A DNA stretch of 64,000 nt from Burkholderiales bacterium. GTDB lineage: Bacteria; Pseudomonadota; Gammaproteobacteria; Burkholderiales; Burkholderiaceae_D. Shown in pieces: positions 17,311-25,718 of the stretch; positions within the stretch are counted from its first letter, which is position 1; the number at the start of each line of letters is the position of its first letter. The DNA lies in assembly GCA_016177875.1 (NCBI GenBank), contig JACOUL010000023.1:1-64000 (forward strand), in the 5' to 3' direction. The translations under genes and the position numbers were made by a program. The notes under the pieces are model-generated. The model ran no database searches. It saw nothing but the letters and a program-made list of their open reading frames with translations, and was not told the origin of the DNA.

Positions 17311-18420
17311 CTAAAATAAATCGAGTTGACCTTTGGTTGGAGAGATACTCGTTTTGTCCAACGGGGCCATCATCGGTTTTTTGAAGCGCGATGTATCGAG
17401 CGCGGCATAACTCTCTTTGCGCCCAGTTAACCCAAAGCGCCGTGCCGCCTTCTCGAAGCGCTGACGTATCAATTCCGCCCACACACCTTCTCCGCGCATG
17501 CGTGAACCAAAGCTTGCCTCGTAATTTTTCCCGTCATGCATATCGCGTAAGCGATTCAATACCCGCTCGGCGCGATCCGGAAAATGCGCCTGCAGCCACT
17601 GTTGGAACAGCGGATTCACTTCCCATGGCAAGCGCAGCACCACGTAGCTCGCGGTAGCGGCTCCGGCATCCGCTACCGCTTCCAGCACGCGCTCCAGATC
17701 GGGTTCAGTGACGAATGGAATCACCGGCGCGACGCTGACGGCAACGGGAATACCGGCATCGGCGAGCGTTCGTATGGTGCGTAGGCGCCGTAAGGGGGCG
17801 GCGGCACGCGGCTCCAGCGTTCGCGCAATTTTCGGGCCGAGCGTGGTGATGGTCACGGCAGCGATGGCCAGCCGATTTTGCGCCATGTCGGCAAGCAAAT
17901 CTATATCGTGCTCTATCAGTGCCGACTTCGTGATTAACGCAAGCGGATGCTCGCATTCATGCAGCACGTGCAGCACGCGGCGCGTTAAGCCGAGTTCACG
18001 TTCGCAGGGTTGATAGGCATCGGTATTGACGCCGAGTGCGATCGGCTCCGGCCGGTATGACGGTTTGGCGAGTTCACGCCGCAGTAGTTCTGGAGCATTG
18101 ACCTTCGCGAAAATTTTGCTCTCGAAATCCAAGCCGGGCGAAAGGCCAAGGTAGCTATGAGTGGGACGCGCGAAGCAATAAATGCAGCCATGCTCGCAGC
18201 CCCGATAGGGATTGAGCGAGACATTAAAGGGGATATCGGGCGATTGATTGCGGGTGAGGATGGACTTGGCTTGCTCTTCGATGACTTCCGTTTTGCGTGC
18301 CGGCACAGGCATGCCTTGTTCATCTTCATGGCGCCAGCCATCGTCGAATGCTTCCCGCAAATGGCGCTCGTGGCGCCCTTGCAAGTTAGTGACTGCACCC
18401 CGGCCTTTGAGCGGTTTCAT
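17311..18420 (-). CDS. SPL-like radical SAM protein (PA0069/Rv2578c family)
   Basis: The protein has 369 residues. The radical SAM cluster motif is intact: GCEHGCIYCFARP (CxxxCxxC) near residue 75, within NVSLNPYRGCEHGCIYC. The N-terminal KGRGAVTNLQGRHE and later GVNTDAYQPCERELGLTRRV match the PA0069/spore-photoproduct-lyase-related family, of unproven function. Its ATG lies 17 bases from a strong LexA box, on the other side of which is the imuABC operon, so it may share SOS control. This is suggestive because SPL enzymes repair DNA, but no activity can be read from sequence. Confidence 0.88.
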   Translation of the reverse strand: MKPLKGRGAVTNLQGRHERHLREAFDDGWRHEDEQGMPVPARKTEVIEEQAKSILTRNQSPDIPFNVSLNPYRGCEHGCIYCFARPTHSYLGLSPGLDFESKIFAKVNAPELLRRELAKPSYRPEPIALGVNTDAYQPCERELGLTRRVLHVLHECEHPLALITKSALIEHDIDLLADMAQNRLAIAAVTITTLGPKIARTLEPRAAAPLRRLRTIRTLADAGIPVAVSVAPVIPFVTEPDLERVLEAVADAGAATASYVVLRLPWEVNPLFQQWLQAHFPDRAERVLNRLRDMHDGKNYEASFGSRMRGEGVWAELIRQRFEKAARRFGLTGRKESYAALDTSRFKKPMMAPLDKTSISPTKGQLDLF

Positions 18421-18454
18421 AGCTTCTTCATCAATACTGTATAAATAAACAGTG
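18416..18454 (+). promoter_or_regulatory. LexA (SOS) box and promoter of imuA-imuB-dnaE2
   Basis: TACTGTATAAATAAACAGTG at 18435-18454 matches the E. coli LexA consensus at 17 of 20 positions and has the required CTGT-N8-ACAG (18437-18452). TATAAA at 18440-18445 inside the box is a good -10 element, and TTCATA at 18416-18421 could be a -35 (18-bp spacing). The predicted start of transcription is therefore about 18452. The group II intron begins at that point. The box also lies 17 bases before the start codon of the divergent radical SAM gene. Confidence 0.85.
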
Positions 18455-18819
18455 TGCGCCGGGAGACCGGTGAAGGTGAAGGGGTGAAAGTCCCCGACGA
18501 TGCAAGACCTAGCGAGTCACATTGTCCCCGAGTCATGCGTGGCAAGCCGCGAGGCTTGACGCGAAGCGTTGACAGGGGTGCTGATAGGCCAGCCATTGAG
18601 CCATGAAATGTTATTAGAGATCCGAGTGCTGACGCAGTACTGTATGTGGAAGGCGAAACCGCACGGCGCGCTATCGCAAGCGCCGGCGCGGACTCGGCGC
18701 GGTCTGAGACCCTGGCATGTCAGTACGACCTTCACGCGGGAACCGGGAGATCTCCTGTTTGACCGCTGGCAGCAGCACCGCCATGCGGCCCGCATCGGGA
18801 AGGCGAGGAGCCCAAGCCG

Positions 18820-20352
18820 ATGATGCACGAACAGGAGAAGTCGGACTTTCCCATAGTAGCGACGAAGCTGGCGAACAAATCCGGGCAACCGGAAGCGGAG
18901 CCGGTGGAGCCAAGGGGAGGGGCCAAGAGAAACACGCACCAGCAGCGCATGTGCCGGACACAGAGTCGGGAAAGCATGTCCCAGCGGCTGGAGCGTGTGC
19001 GGCAAGCCGCAAGGCAAAGAAAGCAGGAACGGTTCACCGCGCTGTTCCACTTAATCGATATCGAATTGCTGGAAACGGCGTTCTACTGGCTAAAGAAGAA
19101 AGCCGCCCCCGGCATCGATGGCGTGACGTGGCAACAATACGAACAAGACTTGGAGACCAATCTCGTGCAACTGCATGAAAGGCTGCACCGGCAAGCCTAT
19201 CGGGCGCTCCCCTCCCGCAGACGGTACATACCGAAAGCGGATGGCAAGCTGCGTCCCCTAGGCATCGCCGCGCTGGAAGACAAGATCATTCAGCGCGCAC
19301 TGGTGGAAATCCTGAACGCCGTGTATGAGAACGATTTCCTCGGCTTCTCGTATGGATTCCGTCCGAAACGCTCCCAGCATGATGCGCTGGACGCGTTGGC
19401 GACGGCAATTGCGCGCACCAATGTGAACTGGATACTGGACGCCGACATCAGCCGGTTCTTCGACACGGTCAGCCACGACTGGCTGATCCAATTCGTCGAA
19501 CATCGGATCGGCGATCCTCGCGTGATACGGCTGATCCGCAAATGGTTGGCGGCAGGCACGATGGAAGACGGAGAGATCGAACCGACAGAGCAAGGCACGC
19601 CCCAAGGGGCCGTGATCTCGCCGCTGCTGGCAAACATCTACCTCCACTATGTCTTCGACCTATGGGCAAACCAATGGCGCAAACGCCATGCCCGTGGCAA
19701 CGTCGTGATCATCCGCTATGCCGACGACATCGTCATTGGCTTTGACAAGCAAGACGACGCCAAGCGGTTCAAGCGTGCCATGCAAATGCGGCTGGAGAAG
19801 TTTGCGCTGACGGTACACCCGGAAAAGACCCGCTTGATCGAGTTTGGCCGCTTTGCGGCAGAAAACCGGGCCAAGCGGGGACTCGGGAAACCGGAAACGT
19901 TCAACTTCCTTGGATTCACGCATATCAGTGGCCGCGCCCGAGACGGCAAGTTCATGCTCAGGCGCAAGACCCGGCGCGACCGGATGCGGGCCACATTAAA
20001 GGCGATCAAGGAAGAATTGCGGCGCAGATGGCACCAGTCGATTCCCGAGCAAGGGAAGTGGCTGCGGCAGGTAGTGCAAGGGTACTTCAACTACCATGCT
20101 GTGCCGACTAACAGTCCAGCGCTGGGCGCGTTCCGGGCGCATGTGGTCGATCTCTGGCGGCGGGCGCTACGGCGGCGCAGCCAGGAAGATGACACGACAT
20201 GGGCGAAGGTGACGCGCCTGGCGGACAAATGGCTTCCCAAGGCAAAGGTCTTGCATCCTTGGCCGGTGGTGCGATTTGCCGCCAAATACTCAAGGCAAGA
20301 GCCCGGTGCGCGAATGGCGCACGCCGGGATCTGTGCGGGGGGTATGCAGTAA
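18820..20352 (+). CDS. ltrA: Group II intron reverse transcriptase/maturase
   Basis: The protein has 510 residues from ATG 18820 (ATG 18823 also possible). The reverse transcriptase blocks are clear: YIPKADGKLRPLGIAALEDK, GFSYGFRPKRSQHDALDAL, QGTPQGAVISPLLANIYLHY and the catalytic YADD in IIRYADDIVIGF. Then come the thumb/X maturase region (LNFLGFT-like block, FNFLGFTHISGRARDGKFML) and a short DNA-binding C-terminus. No Cys-pair HNH endonuclease domain is present, so mobility would rely on other primers such as replication forks. It splices the intron and reverse-transcribes it. The reading frame continues through intron domains V and VI, so the last 15-20 residues are encoded by catalytic RNA sequence. 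Confidence 0.93.
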   Translation: MMHEQEKSDFPIVATKLANKSGQPEAEPVEPRGGAKRNTHQQRMCRTQSRESMSQRLERVRQAARQRKQERFTALFHLIDIELLETAFYWLKKKAAPGIDGVTWQQYEQDLETNLVQLHERLHRQAYRALPSRRRYIPKADGKLRPLGIAALEDKIIQRALVEILNAVYENDFLGFSYGFRPKRSQHDALDALATAIARTNVNWILDADISRFFDTVSHDWLIQFVEHRIGDPRVIRLIRKWLAAGTMEDGEIEPTEQGTPQGAVISPLLANIYLHYVFDLWANQWRKRHARGNVVIIRYADDIVIGFDKQDDAKRFKRAMQMRLEKFALTVHPEKTRLIEFGRFAAENRAKRGLGKPETFNFLGFTHISGRARDGKFMLRRKTRRDRMRATLKAIKEELRRRWHQSIPEQGKWLRQVVQGYFNYHAVPTNSPALGAFRAHVVDLWRRALRRRSQEDDTTWAKVTRLADKWLPKAKVLHPWPVVRFAAKYSRQEPGARMAHAGICAGGMQ

Positions 20353-20366
20353 TGCGTATCTCTACC
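20299..20366 (+). ncRNA. Group II intron domains V and VI
   Basis: Domain V (20299-20332) folds as CCCGG-TGCGC-GAAT-GCGCA-CG-CCGGG with AGC at its base, the catalytic core of group II ribozymes. Domain VI follows, with GGTATGCA pairing to TGCGTATC and an unpaired AGTAA segment that should hold the branch-point adenosine. The 3' splice site is about 20371. Confidence 0.8.
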
Positions 20367-20395
20367 GCGACAAAAGAACAGTTCAGGAGGTCATC

Positions 20396-21151
20396 ATGTC
20401 TGCGTCCGCCGGTGGAGTCGCAGCCGCTCTCGCTTCGTCCTTGGATTCGCATTCATCGCTGAATCGTTTTATCTGGCGCGCCGATCAGATGAGCAAGCAT
20501 CATGCCGCTGTCGCACGTAGCGGCTATCCAAGGCTCGATCAAGAATTGCCCGATGGCGGTTGGCCGCGTTCGGCGTTGATCGAACTGCTATTGCAGCAAG
20601 GGGGCATTGGCGAAATACGATTATTGCGTCCAGCCTTAAAAGAAATTACCAAAGAGCGTCGTGTGGCGCTCGTTCAGCCGCCGCATTTGCCGCAAGCCGC
20701 GGCATGGCTTTCTTGGGGCATGCAGGCCGAGCGCTTGTTATGGATAAAGACGGCGCGCACGGCCGATGCTTTATGGGCGGCGGAACAAATTCTGCGTAAC
20801 GGCAGTTGCGGGGCGCTCTTGTTGTGGCAAAACCAGGTGCGTTCCGAATCTTTGCGGCGCTTACATTTGGCGGCGCAAAACGCCGATACCGCGTTTTGGA
20901 TGGTGCGGCCGCTGGCTGCCATGCATGAAGCTTCGCCGGCGCCCTTGCGGCTGGCACTCAAACCCGCTTTGCGCGGATTGCACATCGAGATAGTGAAGCG
21001 ACGAGGAGCGCATTGCGATGACATCCTCACCGTGTCGTTCGACGATGCCGTCGCGGCACCTTCCAATATATCGAAAATCAATCATGCGTCTGTGGATCGC
21101 CGTACATCTACCGTTTCTGTCATTGGAGGCATTGCGTCCGCGCTGGTCTAA
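20396..21151 (+). CDS. imuA: Mutasome accessory protein ImuA
   Basis: ATG 20396 follows AGGAGG (20385-20390) and gives 251 residues; the longer frame upstream is intron sequence. The RecA/SulA-like ImuA core is evident: YPRLDQELPDGGWPRSALIE, then AAWLSWGMQAERLLWIKTAR and LRNGSCGALLLWQNQVRSES. ImuA works with ImuB and DnaE2 in SOS-induced translesion synthesis, probably interacting with RecA. It is the first gene of the imuA-imuB-dnaE2 operon under the LexA box at 18437-18452, but separated from that box by a 1.9-kb intron. Its 3' end overlaps imuB by 68 bases. Confidence 0.93.
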   Translation: MSASAGGVAAALASSLDSHSSLNRFIWRADQMSKHHAAVARSGYPRLDQELPDGGWPRSALIELLLQQGGIGEIRLLRPALKEITKERRVALVQPPHLPQAAAWLSWGMQAERLLWIKTARTADALWAAEQILRNGSCGALLLWQNQVRSESLRRLHLAAQNADTAFWMVRPLAAMHEASPAPLRLALKPALRGLHIEIVKRRGAHCDDILTVSFDDAVAAPSNISKINHASVDRRTSTVSVIGGIASALV

Positions 21152-22553
21152 GCCGGGCAGATATGCGGTGCTGGAGCGGGATCGCGTACTGGCGATGACG
21201 CAAGAAGCAGCGGCAAGCGGCGTGCAAATCGGTATGCGCCGCAATGGCGTCATCGCGATTGCGCCGGGTACGCAATTGCATGAGCGCGATGAAGCAAAAG
21301 AGGCGGCTGCGTTGAACGATGTGGCGCTCGCTCTTTTGCAATACACACCCGAAGTTGCGTTGGCCGACGAGGCCGGCGTATTGCTGGAAGTGAGAGCGAG
21401 CTTGCGTTTCTTTCAGGGGCCGCGTGCGTTGTGCCGGCGCGTGTGCGCAACGGTAAATGCATTGGGATTCGCCGTGCGGATCGGCATGGCACCGACCGCG
21501 CAAGGTGCGCACTTGCTTGCCTGCAGAGCAGTGTGCGTAAAATCAGAAAAGCGTCGCCGCACCATGCGTATGGAAGGCATGGTGCGCCTGCTCGACGCTT
21601 TGCCTTTTACCTTGCTGCGCGAAACCCATCCCTATGCCGATTGGCTGGAAGGCATAGGCTGCACTACGCTGGCTGACGTGCGCAAATTGCCGCGCGCGGG
21701 ATTGCAGAGGCGCGGCGGCAAAGCCGTGCTGGAAGCGCTCGATCGCGCCTATGCTCTTGCGCCGGAATTATTCGAGTGGCTACAGCCGCCGCCGACATTT
21801 TCCGCATACCTGGAGCTGCCTGAGCGCATCGAGTATGCGGAAGCGGTTTTGTTTGCCGCGCGCCGCTTGATCGTGCAGATGATCGGCTGGCTTGTGGCGC
21901 GGCAGTTCGCGGTATCGCGCTTCATTCTTTTACTCGAACACGAACGCGGCCGCACCGCCATTGATCCCACGCTCATCGAAATCGCTTTGGCTGAAGCGGC
22001 CTGGCATGAAGAACATTTGACGCGGCTTTTGAAAGAAAGACTCGCACGCCTCACCTTGCCGGCAGCAATCATCGCTTTGCGCCTGAAAGCCGAGCAAGTT
22101 TGCTCCATGATGCCGCCGACGGATTCTTTGTTTCCTGAGCCCGGCCGAACAAGAGAAGATTTTCATCGCTTGCTGGAATTGCTGACGGCACGCTTAGGCA
22201 ATGCATGCGTGCTGGCGCCGATGCCGGTGGCGGATTACCGACCGGAAGTGTGCAATGCCTGGATGCCGGCTGCAGATTGCCGGTCGGTCGCTTTTAATCC
22301 GCTGCCGGCCGAGCGTCCGTTCTGGCTGCTGGAAAAGCCGATCGCTTTACTCGTGCGTGATCATCGACCGTTTTACGGCTCGCCTTTGACATTAGTGCGC
22401 GGCCCGGAGCGCATTGAATGCGGCTGGTGGGATAGCGGGTTTGCGGCGCGTGATTATTTCGTCGCGCAAGACAAGGATGGCGCTTGCTATTGGATTTACC
22501 GCGAGCGTTTGAAAGAGGAAGTACATTGGTTTTTGCATGGCATGTTTGCATGA
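21084..22553 (+). CDS. imuB: ImuB, catalytically inactive Y-family polymerase homologue
   Basis: ATG 21084 (MRLWIAVHLPFLSLEALRPR) gives 489 residues. An upstream extension to 21018 lies inside imuA and is not family-like. The protein has the DinP/UmuC fold (LRFFQGPRALCRRVCATVNA, then GFAVRIGMAPTAQGAHLLAC). It lacks the acidic metal ligands of active Y-polymerases: the N-terminal DxD-type site reads AVHLPF. This is characteristic of ImuB, which acts as the beta-clamp-binding hub recruiting DnaE2. It overlaps imuA by 68 bases and is followed after six bases by dnaE2, implying translational coupling. Confidence 0.93.
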   Translation: MRLWIAVHLPFLSLEALRPRWSKPGRYAVLERDRVLAMTQEAAASGVQIGMRRNGVIAIAPGTQLHERDEAKEAAALNDVALALLQYTPEVALADEAGVLLEVRASLRFFQGPRALCRRVCATVNALGFAVRIGMAPTAQGAHLLACRAVCVKSEKRRRTMRMEGMVRLLDALPFTLLRETHPYADWLEGIGCTTLADVRKLPRAGLQRRGGKAVLEALDRAYALAPELFEWLQPPPTFSAYLELPERIEYAEAVLFAARRLIVQMIGWLVARQFAVSRFILLLEHERGRTAIDPTLIEIALAEAAWHEEHLTRLLKERLARLTLPAAIIALRLKAEQVCSMMPPTDSLFPEPGRTREDFHRLLELLTARLGNACVLAPMPVADYRPEVCNAWMPAADCRSVAFNPLPAERPFWLLEKPIALLVRDHRPFYGSPLTLVRGPERIECGWWDSGFAARDYFVAQDKDGACYWIYRERLKEEVHWFLHGMFA

Positions 22554-22559
22554 GGCGAT

Positions 22560-25500
22560 ATGCTTGAATCGTTTTCTTCATCGGCATTGCCGGATTACGC
22601 CGAACTGCAATGCGCTTCCAACTTCAGTTTTCTACGCGGCGCATCGCATCCGGAAGAGTTGGTGGAGCGCGCAGCCAAGCTGGGGTATGCGGCGCTTGCC
22701 ATGACGGATGAATGCTCAGTGGCCGGAGTAGTGCGCGCGCATGTCGAAGCAAAAAATCTGGGCCTGCATTTAATTGTCGGCAGTTGGTTTCAATTGACGA
22801 ACGAAGACGGCAGTCCGGCATGTTCGCTGATCTTACTGGCGCAGAACCGCGAAGGCTACGGCAATTTATGCGAGTTGATTACCTTGGCACGCACGCGCGC
22901 GGAAGTGGAGAAAGGGGACTATCGCTTAGCGCCGTGCGACTTGGATATGCCGAAGGAGGGATACGTCCACTTGCAAGGCATGCCGGACTGCCTGGCGATT
23001 TTGACGCCCGCGTACGGCGTGAGTGAAGAAGAACTGCGGACGCAAGCGGCATGGCTGCGGGCGACATTTCCCGCGCGTGCTTTTGTCGCGCTCACCTTAT
23101 TGCACCGCGCGCTGGACGAGCGACATAAAAACGTCGTTGCATCGGTATGCGAAGAATACGGATTGCCCATGGCGGCAACCGGCGATGTCTGCATGCATGT
23201 CCGCTCCCGCAAACTTTTGCAAGACGTATTGACGGCGATTCGCTTCGGAAAACCGGTGAACACCTGCGGTTATGCGTTGGCTTCCAACGCCGAGCAGCAT
23301 TTGCGTTCGCGGCTGCGGCTGGCCAATCTTTATCCTGCCGAAGCATTAGCGCAAACCGTGCAGATTGCACGGCAATGTACTTTTTCTCTGGATGAATTGC
23401 GTTACGAATATCCGGAAGAGCTGGTGCCGGCAGGTCAGACGCCGGCTGCTTATTTACGCCAAGAGACTTACATCGGCGCGCATCGGCGTTATTCATCCGG
23501 TATTCCTGCGCAAGTGCAGGAACAAATCGAGCATGAGCTGGGACTTCTCGTCGAGATGCGCTATGAAGCTTATTTTCTAACGGTGTATGACATCGTTCGA
23601 TTCGCGCGCCGTGAAAAAATTCTGTGCCAGGGACGCGGCTCGGCGGCGAATTCCGCCGTGTGTTATTGCTTAGGGATCACCGAGGTCGATCCGGCACGCG
23701 GCAATGCTTTATTCGAGCGCTTCATCTCGAAAGAGCGCAACGAACCGCCCGATATCGATGTCGATTTCGAACATCAGCGGCGCGAAGAAGTCATTCAGTA
23801 CATTTATCAAAAGTATGGGAGGCTGCGCGCGGCATTGACGGCGGTGGTGATCAGTTACCGTCCAAGAAGCGTGCTGCGCGATGTCGGCAAAGCGCTGGGC
23901 GTGGACCCTGGCATTATCGACCAGGTGGCAAAATTTCATCGCTGGTGGGATGGCAAAACCCAGCTGACTGAACATTTTCGTCAATGCGGGTTGGATCCGG
24001 AATCGATCATTGCGCAGCAGTGGCGAGTCATTGCTTATGAGTTAATGGGTTTTCCTCGCCACTTGTCGCAGCACCCCGGCGGGTTCGTGATATCTCGCGG
24101 CAAATTGTCCCGGCTGGTGCCGATCGAAAATGCTGCCATGGAAAAGCGCAGCGTAGTGCAATGGGATAAGGACGATCTCGATGCGCTGGGATTGCTGAAA
24201 GTCGATGTGCTTGCGCTCGGCATGCTCTCGGTGATTCGACGTGCGCTGGAGTTTGTCGGCGCAAGAAGAGGCGAGCCTTTCGAGATGCAGGATATTCCTG
24301 CGGAAGATGCAGCCACTTACGACATGATCTGTGAAGCCGACACCATAGGCGTATTCCAAATCGAAAGCCGTGCGCAGATGAGCATGCTGCCGCGCTTGAG
24401 GCCGCGAGAATTTTACGATTTGGTGATCGAAGTGGCGATCGTGCGGCCGGGGCCGATTCAGGGCGGCATGGTGCATCCGTATTTGCGCCGCAAGCAAGGA
24501 CTGGAGCCGATTGTCTATCCGGGCAAGGAAGTAGAACAAGCTTTGGCGCGTACGCTGGGTGTGCCGATCTTTCAAGAGCAGGTGATGCAGATTGCCGTAT
24601 TGGCCGGCGGCTTTTCCCCGGGCGAAGCGGATCATTTACGGCGTTCGATGGCAGCATGGAGAAAAAAAGGCGACATCGGAAAATTTCGGGACAAGCTCGT
24701 TAAAGGCATGACGGAACGCGGTTATGACGAAAAGTTTGCCGACGCTATATTTCAACAAATTGAAGGCTTCGCCGAATACGGTTTTCCTGAAAGCCACGCC
24801 GCCAGCTTCGCATTGCTGGCCTATGCCAGTGCTTGGTTGAAGTGCCGTGAACCGGCGGCATTTTTAGCTGCGCTACTGAATAGTCAGCCGATGGGTTTTT
24901 ACACGCCATCGCAATTGGTGCAGGACGCAAGGCGCCACAAGGTCGAAGTGCGCGTGGTTGATGTAGGCATTAGCCATTGGGAAGCGACGCTGGAGTCTGC
25001 ATCAGGCGAGCAACCGGCGATCAGGCTCGGCTTTAATATCGTGCGCGGGATGTCGCAAGAAGCGGCATTGCGTATCGAAGAGTCGCGTGCCGTAAAACCG
25101 TTTGCCAATCTCAGAGATCTGGCGCTGCGTGCGGAATTGACGCGCCGCGATTTGCAAGTATTGGCCGCGGCCGATGCTTTGCGCGCGTTGGCAGGAAACA
25201 GGCGCCAAGCGTTGTGGCATGCATTGGCCGGCGAACCAGAGCGAGGAATGTTGAAAGCCGCGGCAATTGCGGAGGAAGAAGTACAGTTTGCTGCACCTTC
25301 GGAAGCGCAAACCATCACGGCGGATTACCAAACTCTCGGTTTGACATTAAGACGGCACCCTGTGGCCTTGTTGCGCCCCTTGCTGACCAAAAAACGCTTC
25401 ATGCCTGCCGAGATGCTGAACTCTTTCGCCAACGGTCAATTCGCGCGCGGCTGCGGCATCGTCACCTTGCGCCAGCGGCCGGGCACCGCGAAAGGCGTGA

Positions 25501-25718
25501 TGTTCATGTCGCTGGAAGACGAGACCGGTACCGTCAGCGTCGTTATCTGGCCCAAGCTGGTGGATATACAGCGCAGAGCATTGCTAGGGGCTTCGCTATT
25601 AGGCGTATACGGTATCTGGCAATGTGAAAACCAGGTGCGGCATTTGGTGGCGAAGCGGGTGGTGGATTTGTCGGCGTGGCTAGGAAAACTTGTTACCAGC
25701 AGTCGCGACTTTGCTTAG
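22560..25718 (+). CDS. dnaE2: Error-prone DNA polymerase DnaE2 (ImuC)
   Basis: The protein has 1052 residues, full length for DnaE2. The N-terminal PHP domain starts YAELQCASNFSFLRGASHPE; the first metal-site His is replaced by Cys, consistent with loss of proofreading-type activity. The C-family polymerase palm contains PPDIDVDFEHQRREE and, further on, DALGLLKVDVLALGM with the catalytic Asp residues. A tandem HhH region and a C-terminal OB-fold (RQRPGTAKGVMFMSLEDETG) follow. It lacks the tau-binding tail of replicative DnaE1. GAGG precedes the start by five bases. It carries out SOS mutagenesis with ImuA and ImuB. A terminator lies 90 bases beyond its stop. Confidence 0.96.
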   Translation: MLESFSSSALPDYAELQCASNFSFLRGASHPEELVERAAKLGYAALAMTDECSVAGVVRAHVEAKNLGLHLIVGSWFQLTNEDGSPACSLILLAQNREGYGNLCELITLARTRAEVEKGDYRLAPCDLDMPKEGYVHLQGMPDCLAILTPAYGVSEEELRTQAAWLRATFPARAFVALTLLHRALDERHKNVVASVCEEYGLPMAATGDVCMHVRSRKLLQDVLTAIRFGKPVNTCGYALASNAEQHLRSRLRLANLYPAEALAQTVQIARQCTFSLDELRYEYPEELVPAGQTPAAYLRQETYIGAHRRYSSGIPAQVQEQIEHELGLLVEMRYEAYFLTVYDIVRFARREKILCQGRGSAANSAVCYCLGITEVDPARGNALFERFISKERNEPPDIDVDFEHQRREEVIQYIYQKYGRLRAALTAVVISYRPRSVLRDVGKALGVDPGIIDQVAKFHRWWDGKTQLTEHFRQCGLDPESIIAQQWRVIAYELMGFPRHLSQHPGGFVISRGKLSRLVPIENAAMEKRSVVQWDKDDLDALGLLKVDVLALGMLSVIRRALEFVGARRGEPFEMQDIPAEDAATYDMICEADTIGVFQIESRAQMSMLPRLRPREFYDLVIEVAIVRPGPIQGGMVHPYLRRKQGLEPIVYPGKEVEQALARTLGVPIFQEQVMQIAVLAGGFSPGEADHLRRSMAAWRKKGDIGKFRDKLVKGMTERGYDEKFADAIFQQIEGFAEYGFPESHAASFALLAYASAWLKCREPAAFLAALLNSQPMGFYTPSQLVQDARRHKVEVRVVDVGISHWEATLESASGEQPAIRLGFNIVRGMSQEAALRIEESRAVKPFANLRDLALRAELTRRDLQVLAAADALRALAGNRRQALWHALAGEPERGMLKAAAIAEEEVQFAAPSEAQTITADYQTLGLTLRRHPVALLRPLLTKKRFMPAEMLNSFANGQFARGCGIVTLRQRPGTAKGVMFMSLEDETGTVSVVIWPKLVDIQRRALLGASLLGVYGIWQCENQVRHLVAKRVVDLSAWLGKLVTSSRDFA

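Follow-up and report, generated by a model that had tools for sequence, protein, structure and literature searches.

Introduction

The specificities of bacterial group II introns named in the relevant part of a 2015 review comprise homing sites, terminators and attC sites (PMC4424553). One of the closest described relatives of the element analyzed here, the Klebsiella plasmid intron Kl.pn.I5 (alias Se.ma.I1), has a published homing-site account, which, in the sections concerned, describes an intergenic location with a conserved intron-binding site (IBS) and contains the terms 'lexa', 'sos' and 'umu' zero times (PMC3522654). Excerpts of further reports list plasmid CP023932 as a carrier of this intron (PMC6764390) and describe two insertions of it that arose in a hospital outbreak, with the sites not stated there (PMC8269217). 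Similarly, the phage introns on MK448228 and ON470608 were reported, in the passage that covers them, as apparently intergenic (PMC12350094). Here, we analyze a group II intron that stands between a LexA box and the SOS mutagenesis operon imuABC in a stretch of 64,000 nucleotides (nt) from a Burkholderiales bacterium (GenBank assembly GCA_016177875.1, contig JACOUL010000023.1, positions 1 to 64,000 of the forward strand), hereafter called the window.

We propose, with a probability of about 0.9, that this element is a mobile group II intron which uses the LexA operator itself as its homing site. The element is of a known kind, and our confidence that it homes by pairing of its exon-binding site 1 (EBS1) is high. 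The LexA operator as a target class appears to be undescribed in the literature searched: no description of group II introns at LexA boxes was found in the titles and the beginnings of abstracts of the papers listed, a search that covered the subscription literature thinly.

Results

The intron begins one base past a LexA box

The initial annotation of the window had placed a LexA box, a group II intron and an imuABC operon at this locus, and all three indeed stand at the places given; what it missed is that the position of the insertion corresponds to the recognition site of the intron. The box, CTGTATAAATAAACAG, occupies positions 18437 to 18452 and matches the core at 8/8 positions. The intron appears intact, comprises 1,918 nt and has its first base one base past the box; its boundaries were set by comparison with relatives and with empty sites in E. 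coli. Its parts are as follows.

18435 to 18453, forward strand: 5' exon part of the homing site, TACTGTATAAATAAACAG plus T, with the LexA core at 18437 to 18452
18454 to 20371, forward strand: group II intron, GTGCG ... CCGCGAC, 1,918 nt
18487 to 18712, forward strand: core of ribozyme domains I-IV (Rfam RF02005, group-II-D1D4-6; 170.5 bits, gathering score 49)
18610 to 18614, forward strand: candidate EBS2 loop, GTTAT, pairing with site positions -10 to -13 at 4/5 positions
18639 to 18646, forward strand: EBS1, ACTGTATG, whose partner IBS1 comprises the right half of the LexA box and one further base; 7/8 positions pair in the window
18820 to 20352, forward strand: reverse transcriptase/maturase, 510 residues (TIGR04416, 383 bits, cut-off 300)
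20298 to 20332, forward strand: domain V hairpin, predicted fold
20334 to 20371, forward strand: domain VI and 3' end of the intron, predicted fold, the likely branch-point A at 20364 lying in a bulge
20372 to 20395, forward strand: 3' exon and imuA leader, with AGGAGG (ribosome-binding site, identified by eye)

The termini, GTGCG at 18454 and GAC at 20371, fit the GUGYG ... AY rule and are conserved in relatives. The maturase carries a YADD motif (read by eye); an HNH endonuclease domain was not found in the intron protein, whose Pfam matches at an E-value of 0.001 were confined to RVT_1 and RdRP_1. Domains V and VI (20296 to 20371) are predicted to fold with -41.6 kcal/mol (z = -4.4), and the Rfam models for domain V/VI gave no match even at an E-value of 0.01; on the basis of the fold, the A at 20364 is the likely branch point. 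The insertion splits the 20-bp operator such that the 3' exon begins, at 20372, with the last operator base, an A, and the same CAGT/A split (the slash marking the insertion point) is seen at the empty sites in E. coli. Sites of the form CTGTN8ACAG occur three times in the 64-kb window, as opposed to 0.35 expected, and at least three were obtained in 0 of 100 shuffled sequences.

Other copies of the intron occupy the same position

Viral contigs were scanned with a flank-blind pattern consisting of the first 45 bases of the intron, which yielded 57 places in 53 stretches, including related prophages. An exact CTGTN8ACAG core was present at 47 of the 57 places and a core with one mismatch at six, and the other four (4/57) were tandem intron copies. 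A pattern that required ACAG returned 79 viral places with 67 different 40-nt flanks, and the left half of the box was also present in 74 of them. Overall, 87 of 98 distinct flanks were LexA-like, in a set that is biased because it includes flanks from the ACAG-requiring scan. Outside the viral contigs, flanks were read for 24 named records, a non-random choice from the listings out of 4,925 plasmid places plus the E. coli places: 13 showed an exact CTGTN8ACAG core one base before the intron, nine a core with one mismatch and two (L093 and L095) none. The site position CAGT/A is common to copies in Burkholderia, Paraburkholderia, Pandoraea, Cupriavidus and Klebsiella/E. coli replicons.

Two pairs of empty and filled sites show the outcome of insertion at base resolution. 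At umuD, E. coli K-12 (L210) and AR_0118 (L195) share the exact join CAGT/A, with 2+0 mismatches per 150+150 bases; at sbmC, ATCC 8739 (L212) and strain 44 (L193) do likewise, with 0+3 mismatches per 150+150 bases. Neither insertion involved duplication or loss, and the precise joining of the sister intron's empty sites implies that insertion has occurred in the past. The introns at five sites, namely umuD (L195), sbmC (L193), a cloacin gene (L211), an integrase gene (L197) and a plasmid-borne umuD (L194), are 99.8-100% identical, and this near-identity at differing sites suggests that the element may have spread recently. The identity table lacks L005 and L091, both of which were missed by the 3' pattern.

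Head-to-tail tandem introns were also observed behind a single LexA box, with four intron starts in L128 (6088 to 11865) and two in L162 (1103 to 4237), at a period of 1,909. Such arrays would mean either that the site remains usable after insertion or that assembly effects are involved.

EBS1 varies together with the target

In an alignment of the first 330 nt of 21 introns, in which the L006 row has only 135 nt and L065 aligns at its start only, EBS1 stands out as the loop that varies with the 5' exon. The form ACTGTATG accompanies boxes of the ATACAGT type and CCTGTATG accompanies sites ending in G, whereas the enterobacterial-type introns carry ACTGTTTA or ACTGTTAA, and the commonest site there ends in AAACAGT. 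Private matches between EBS1 and the site were found in L012 (with one G-T pair), L014, L015, L026 and L062, and a C at EBS1 position 1 of L013 compensates for the G at its site position -1. The intron L093, from a plasmid of Caballeronia sp. SBC2 (82% maturase identity), has the EBS1 ACGTTATG, and its site ends in TAACGT. Across 90 combinations of flank and EBS, an intron's own EBS1 formed on average 6.28 of 8 possible pairs with IBS1, as opposed to 3.95 for the EBS1 of other introns. For EBS2, pairing is suggestive only.

The pairing does not extend over the whole box. In the 87 LexA-like flanks, the CTG of the left half is invariant, which is in part a selection criterion, and the preceding TA is present in 94-95%. 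By chance, about 0.8 octamers complementary to EBS1 (YATACAGT) should occur in every 64 kb, so that pairing with the right half alone would permit many other sites. Since the left half lies outside the EBS pairing and yet is almost always present, we infer a second reader of this half, which is most likely the maturase.

Lineage and distribution

In a maximum-likelihood tree of 20 maturases, all 11 LexA-targeting rows, including the window row, and L093 form one clade with a support of 98/100, and the LexA-target label requires two changes on this tree. With midpoint rooting, the simplest reading would be a single gain of LexA targeting and a later switch in L093, which falls short of proof of one origin.

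Relatives of the maturase are widespread on mobile replicons. A tblastn search returned at least 5,000 plasmid records, among the best 5,000 of which seven showed 80-90% and 4,233 showed 60-80% identity, as well as four phage records at ~72% identity. Klebsiella-type kin with a query cover of 80% or more were present in 4,078 of 72,556 plasmid records and 201 of 5,426 complete E. coli genomes, with flanks read for a sample only; these counts are used in place of the raw ones (277 E. coli genomes, 4,290 plasmid records), which include matches to the 94 flank bases of the query. The intron precedes umuDC on Klebsiella and E. coli plasmids and on the chromosome of E. coli AR_0118, and sbmC on that of E. 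coli strain 44; in other sense positions, it lies ahead of a cloacin gene or an integrase gene. In L096, L194, L198, L199 and L216-L219, by contrast, umuD diverges from the intron.

The host genome itself contains 5' ends of the intron on the window contig (C49) and on C32, where a perfect box, CTGTATATTTATACAG, stands at the same spacing and 135 nt of the intron are 100% identical. Distinct 3' junctions lie on C49, C51 and C46, so that there must be at least three copies. Behind the two further 3' junctions, at the start of C51 (L007) and the end of C46 (L008), we noted a gene for a ParA-like ATPase (below the model cut-off) and a TIR-like open reading frame (ORF; by eye).

A search of the genome_contigs collection with the maturase yielded 22 loci. 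All five loci whose maturase is 80-82% identical over its full length (L009, L010, L011, L013 and L016; three in Burkholderia cenocepacia and two in Paraburkholderia) have a box at the same spot. The box is absent at L012, L014, L015 and L026, the remaining genome_contigs loci with an alignable 5' end, and likewise at L062, and the intron 5' end is unresolved at 13 loci (L017-L025 and L027-L030). Ten of these (L017-L025 and L030) are copies of a 54% identical relative in the Planctomycetes bacterium SV_7m_r, which lie amid dispersed palindromic repeats, CTCTCCCGC...GCGGGAGAG.

The orientation toward the SOS gene varies in Burkholderiales as well: in L013, the intron and imuA (NF033429, 207 bits) are divergent, an imuA-like ORF (by eye) beside an imuB-like ORF points away from it in L009, and the intron lies opposite imuA in Burkholderia anthina (L091). 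A scan with the intron DNA of 399 genomes of the order, with two candidates scored in each, gave no long match of more than 70% identity outside the host's own genome; its matches were checked for a box at four loci (L062, L063, L065 and L090). An exact 18-mer of the intron 5' end matched only the host's own genome among 369 genomes of the class, so that the clade is patchy among the species scanned.

The imuABC locus

The initial annotation had also described an imuABC-type operon downstream of the intron and a gap of 24 nt between the intron and imuA. Profile matches bear out the operon, with imuA, an imuB-type ORF and dnaE2, and the distance is correct: the intron ends at 20371, and imuA starts at 20396. 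The genes around the intron are as follows.

17311 to 18420, reverse strand: divergent PA0069-family radical SAM gene
20396 to 21151, forward strand: imuA (NF033429, 228 bits, cut-off 150)
21018 to 22553, forward strand: imuB-type ORF (PF00817, Pfam IMS; no NCBIfam match), the true start probably lying downstream of the ORF start
22560 to 25718, forward strand: dnaE2 (imuC), error-prone DNA polymerase (NF004225, 1545 bits)

The imuA reading frame stays open upstream through the 3' end of the intron (ORF 20276 to 21151), probably by chance. In relatives, an exact box core lies within 300 nt upstream of imuA in 21 of 29 loci; this comparison drew on 41 places, of which 30 loci were used, one of them from the host's own genome. 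The host lexA gene (C13, position 95639) has a box of its own, which ends 27 nt ahead of the gene. If the intron is removed, the ORF starts of the radical SAM gene and imuA are 57 bp apart, with the LexA box between them. In Paraburkholderia silviterrae (L016), an intron at a box is followed by a PA0069 radical SAM gene. The shared 57-bp box region in the window and the box before the same type of gene in L016 suggest that the PA0069-family radical SAM gene is SOS-controlled.

Discussion

The data are consistent with the following course of events. The intron RNA would carry the EBS1 loop (ACUGUAUG in the window intron), whose bases complement the right half of the SOS box; EBS2 would probably read the center of the box. 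The maturase, or the local DNA context, may supply the reading of the left half (TACTG), and the ribonucleoprotein would then reverse-splice into TACTGTN8ACAGT/A. The LexA core survives the insertion because the entry point lies one base past the 16-bp core, and LexA may still bind the box afterward. Since LexA boxes are conserved across species and found on plasmids, prophages and chromosomes, they offer the element portable intergenic landing sites, and the imuA insertion in the window would represent one such landing event.

Several observations weigh against this reading. Because many flanks belong to plasmids or prophages that are related to one another, the counts do not represent independent events. 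In L095, the end of an ISL3-type element (inverted repeats GGGTCTTCCC) has replaced the left half of the box and the right half alone is present, and L029, whose 82% identity is limited to its best segment, shows neither an exact box in the locus nor a recognizable intron start. Two of the 90 combinations formed only 3-4 EBS1 pairs, the pairing of EBS2 with positions -9 to -13 barely exceeded that of shuffled loops (4.58 vs 4.05 of 5), and the window intron itself has one mismatch in each of its two pairings (EBS1 7/8, EBS2 4/5). Moreover, 20-mers from four sites were predicted to form hairpins of 6-8 bp (-2.6 to -4.3 kcal/mol; z = -2.2 to -4.6 relative to shuffled sequences). Finally, L093 resides at a site without a LexA box, and target specificity is thus not fixed within the lineage. 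Both EBS1 and EBS2 of L093 fit this site and, judging from its sequence, this intron is a retargeted clade member that constitutes a natural specificity switch.

The description of close relatives as 'intergenic' in the cited parts of two reports (PMC3522654, PMC12350094) would also fit an ordinary insertion, in which the intron landed in the imuA promoter region by chance and the adjacent box reflects coincidence or a general preference for promoters. However, the same single-base offset recurs at 47 of the 57 flank-blind viral places, 22 of the 24 named records fit if one core mismatch is allowed, and an exact core is expected at a given place only about once in 65,536 cases in DNA of even composition. 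We rejected chance or promoter-preference insertion on these flank counts and give it virtually no credence. The hairpins mentioned above bear on a different possibility, namely that the palindromic box is read as a stem-loop in single-stranded DNA, as in class C introns. The lack of an endonuclease domain makes a replication-linked single-stranded target plausible, and the left half is conserved although no EBS pairs with it. However, the stems are weak, and folding would mask the very bases that EBS1 reads; complementarity between EBS1 and IBS1 reaches 8 nt in several copies; and the retargeted L093 site lacks CTGT/ACAG arms and yet matches both EBS1 and EBS2. We consider hairpin reading quite improbable and a hairpin-only target unlikely.

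A role of the LexA protein, with the ribonucleoprotein being guided to, or favoring, LexA-bound or LexA-regulated DNA, could explain why the left half is conserved although EBS1 and EBS2 cover only positions -1 to -13, and octamers complementary to EBS1 should occur by chance dozens of times per genome. Such a role is superfluous, though, if the maturase reads the left half, just as the maturases of other introns read distal bases of the 5' exon, according to the part of the source that deals with them (PMC3522654). Bound LexA might even block the site, and the natural boxes before imuA carry the TA in question as well (18/21). Involvement of LexA in targeting thus appears improbable to us, and homing to the operator through EBS1 and a second reader of the left half is the reading that we prefer.

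What the insertion means for gene expression is a separate question. The initial annotation had suggested that the message starts at the first base of the intron and is unspliceable, such that the arrangement serves to dampen imuABC expression or to make imuABC or the intron SOS-inducible. TATAAA within the box is a possible -10 element, from which transcription would start no more than about two bases away from the intron, and several sense copies precede SOS-type genes (umuD, sbmC, cloacin, imuA). However, a scan for sigma-70-like promoters between 18300 and 20500 found none (0.6 expected), SOS operators in E. coli vary in their place relative to the transcription start, as stated in part of one source (PMC5999292), and in many copies the intron faces away from the SOS gene, so that dampening or SOS induction fails to cover the whole pattern; overall, we regard this proposal as doubtful. 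In sense insertions, the intron RNA may be SOS-inducible and the SOS gene loaded with an intron leader, whereas in the other insertions the gene would retain the operator-side sequence. SOS-driven expression and effects on mutagenesis are put forward here as hypotheses. It is tempting to extend them to a retroelement lineage that parasitizes a stress regulon: landing at an SOS operator, it would sit at or near the SOS transcript start, be induced by damage when LexA leaves, make intron RNA almost without a 5' exon and home via this linear RNA, so that its spread would be tied to damage as well as to the expression of mutagenic polymerases. We think it rather unlikely that this whole scenario applies.

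Homing to LexA operators would have consequences beyond the window. In both clinical and soil bacteria, an insert annotated merely as 'ltrA' occupies promoters of umuDC, imuABC, sbmC and bacteriocin genes and could alter SOS mutagenesis and colicin expression. The question of a damage-driven retroelement becomes directly testable, and an EBS1 that reads an operator, together with a naturally retargeted variant, offers a clean case of specificity evolution.

Among the known systems, Kl.pn.I5 belongs to the same clade, as judged from the copy on CP023932 rather than from the pK245 reference. The CP023932 intron has inserted at a box ahead of a cloacin gene and is 99.8-100% identical to the copies at the umuD and sbmC boxes of E. 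coli. Klebsiella-type copies share ~73% maturase identity with the window intron, and their EBS1 fits AAACAGT rather than ATACAGT. The phage introns on MK448228 (L097) and the near-identical ON470622 (L098) belong to the lineage of the window intron and are located at CTGTATATAAAAACAG, and that on ON470608 matches the window maturase at 72%. E.c.I4 and other introns that target insertion sequence (IS) elements likewise spread in multiple copies by homing to a repeated target, but this target lies inside IS elements, as described in part of the pertinent report (PMC3522654), rather than in a host regulatory site. Group IIC introns, which insert at terminators and attC sites, are alike in that their target is a dispersed palindromic regulatory motif and that they insert just past it. 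The 5' flank in the window, however, is a LexA box with a weak hairpin and thus does not resemble a class C site. Only two terminator-like sites were found, both inside the intron on the other strand and none at the 5' flank, in a search not directed at attC sites as such. Moreover, the lineage of the window intron differs from group IIC introns by its long EBS1-IBS1 pairing and by a motif that is a repressor operator. A transcription-factor operator would thereby be added to the three target classes named in the cited part of the 2015 review (PMC4424553).

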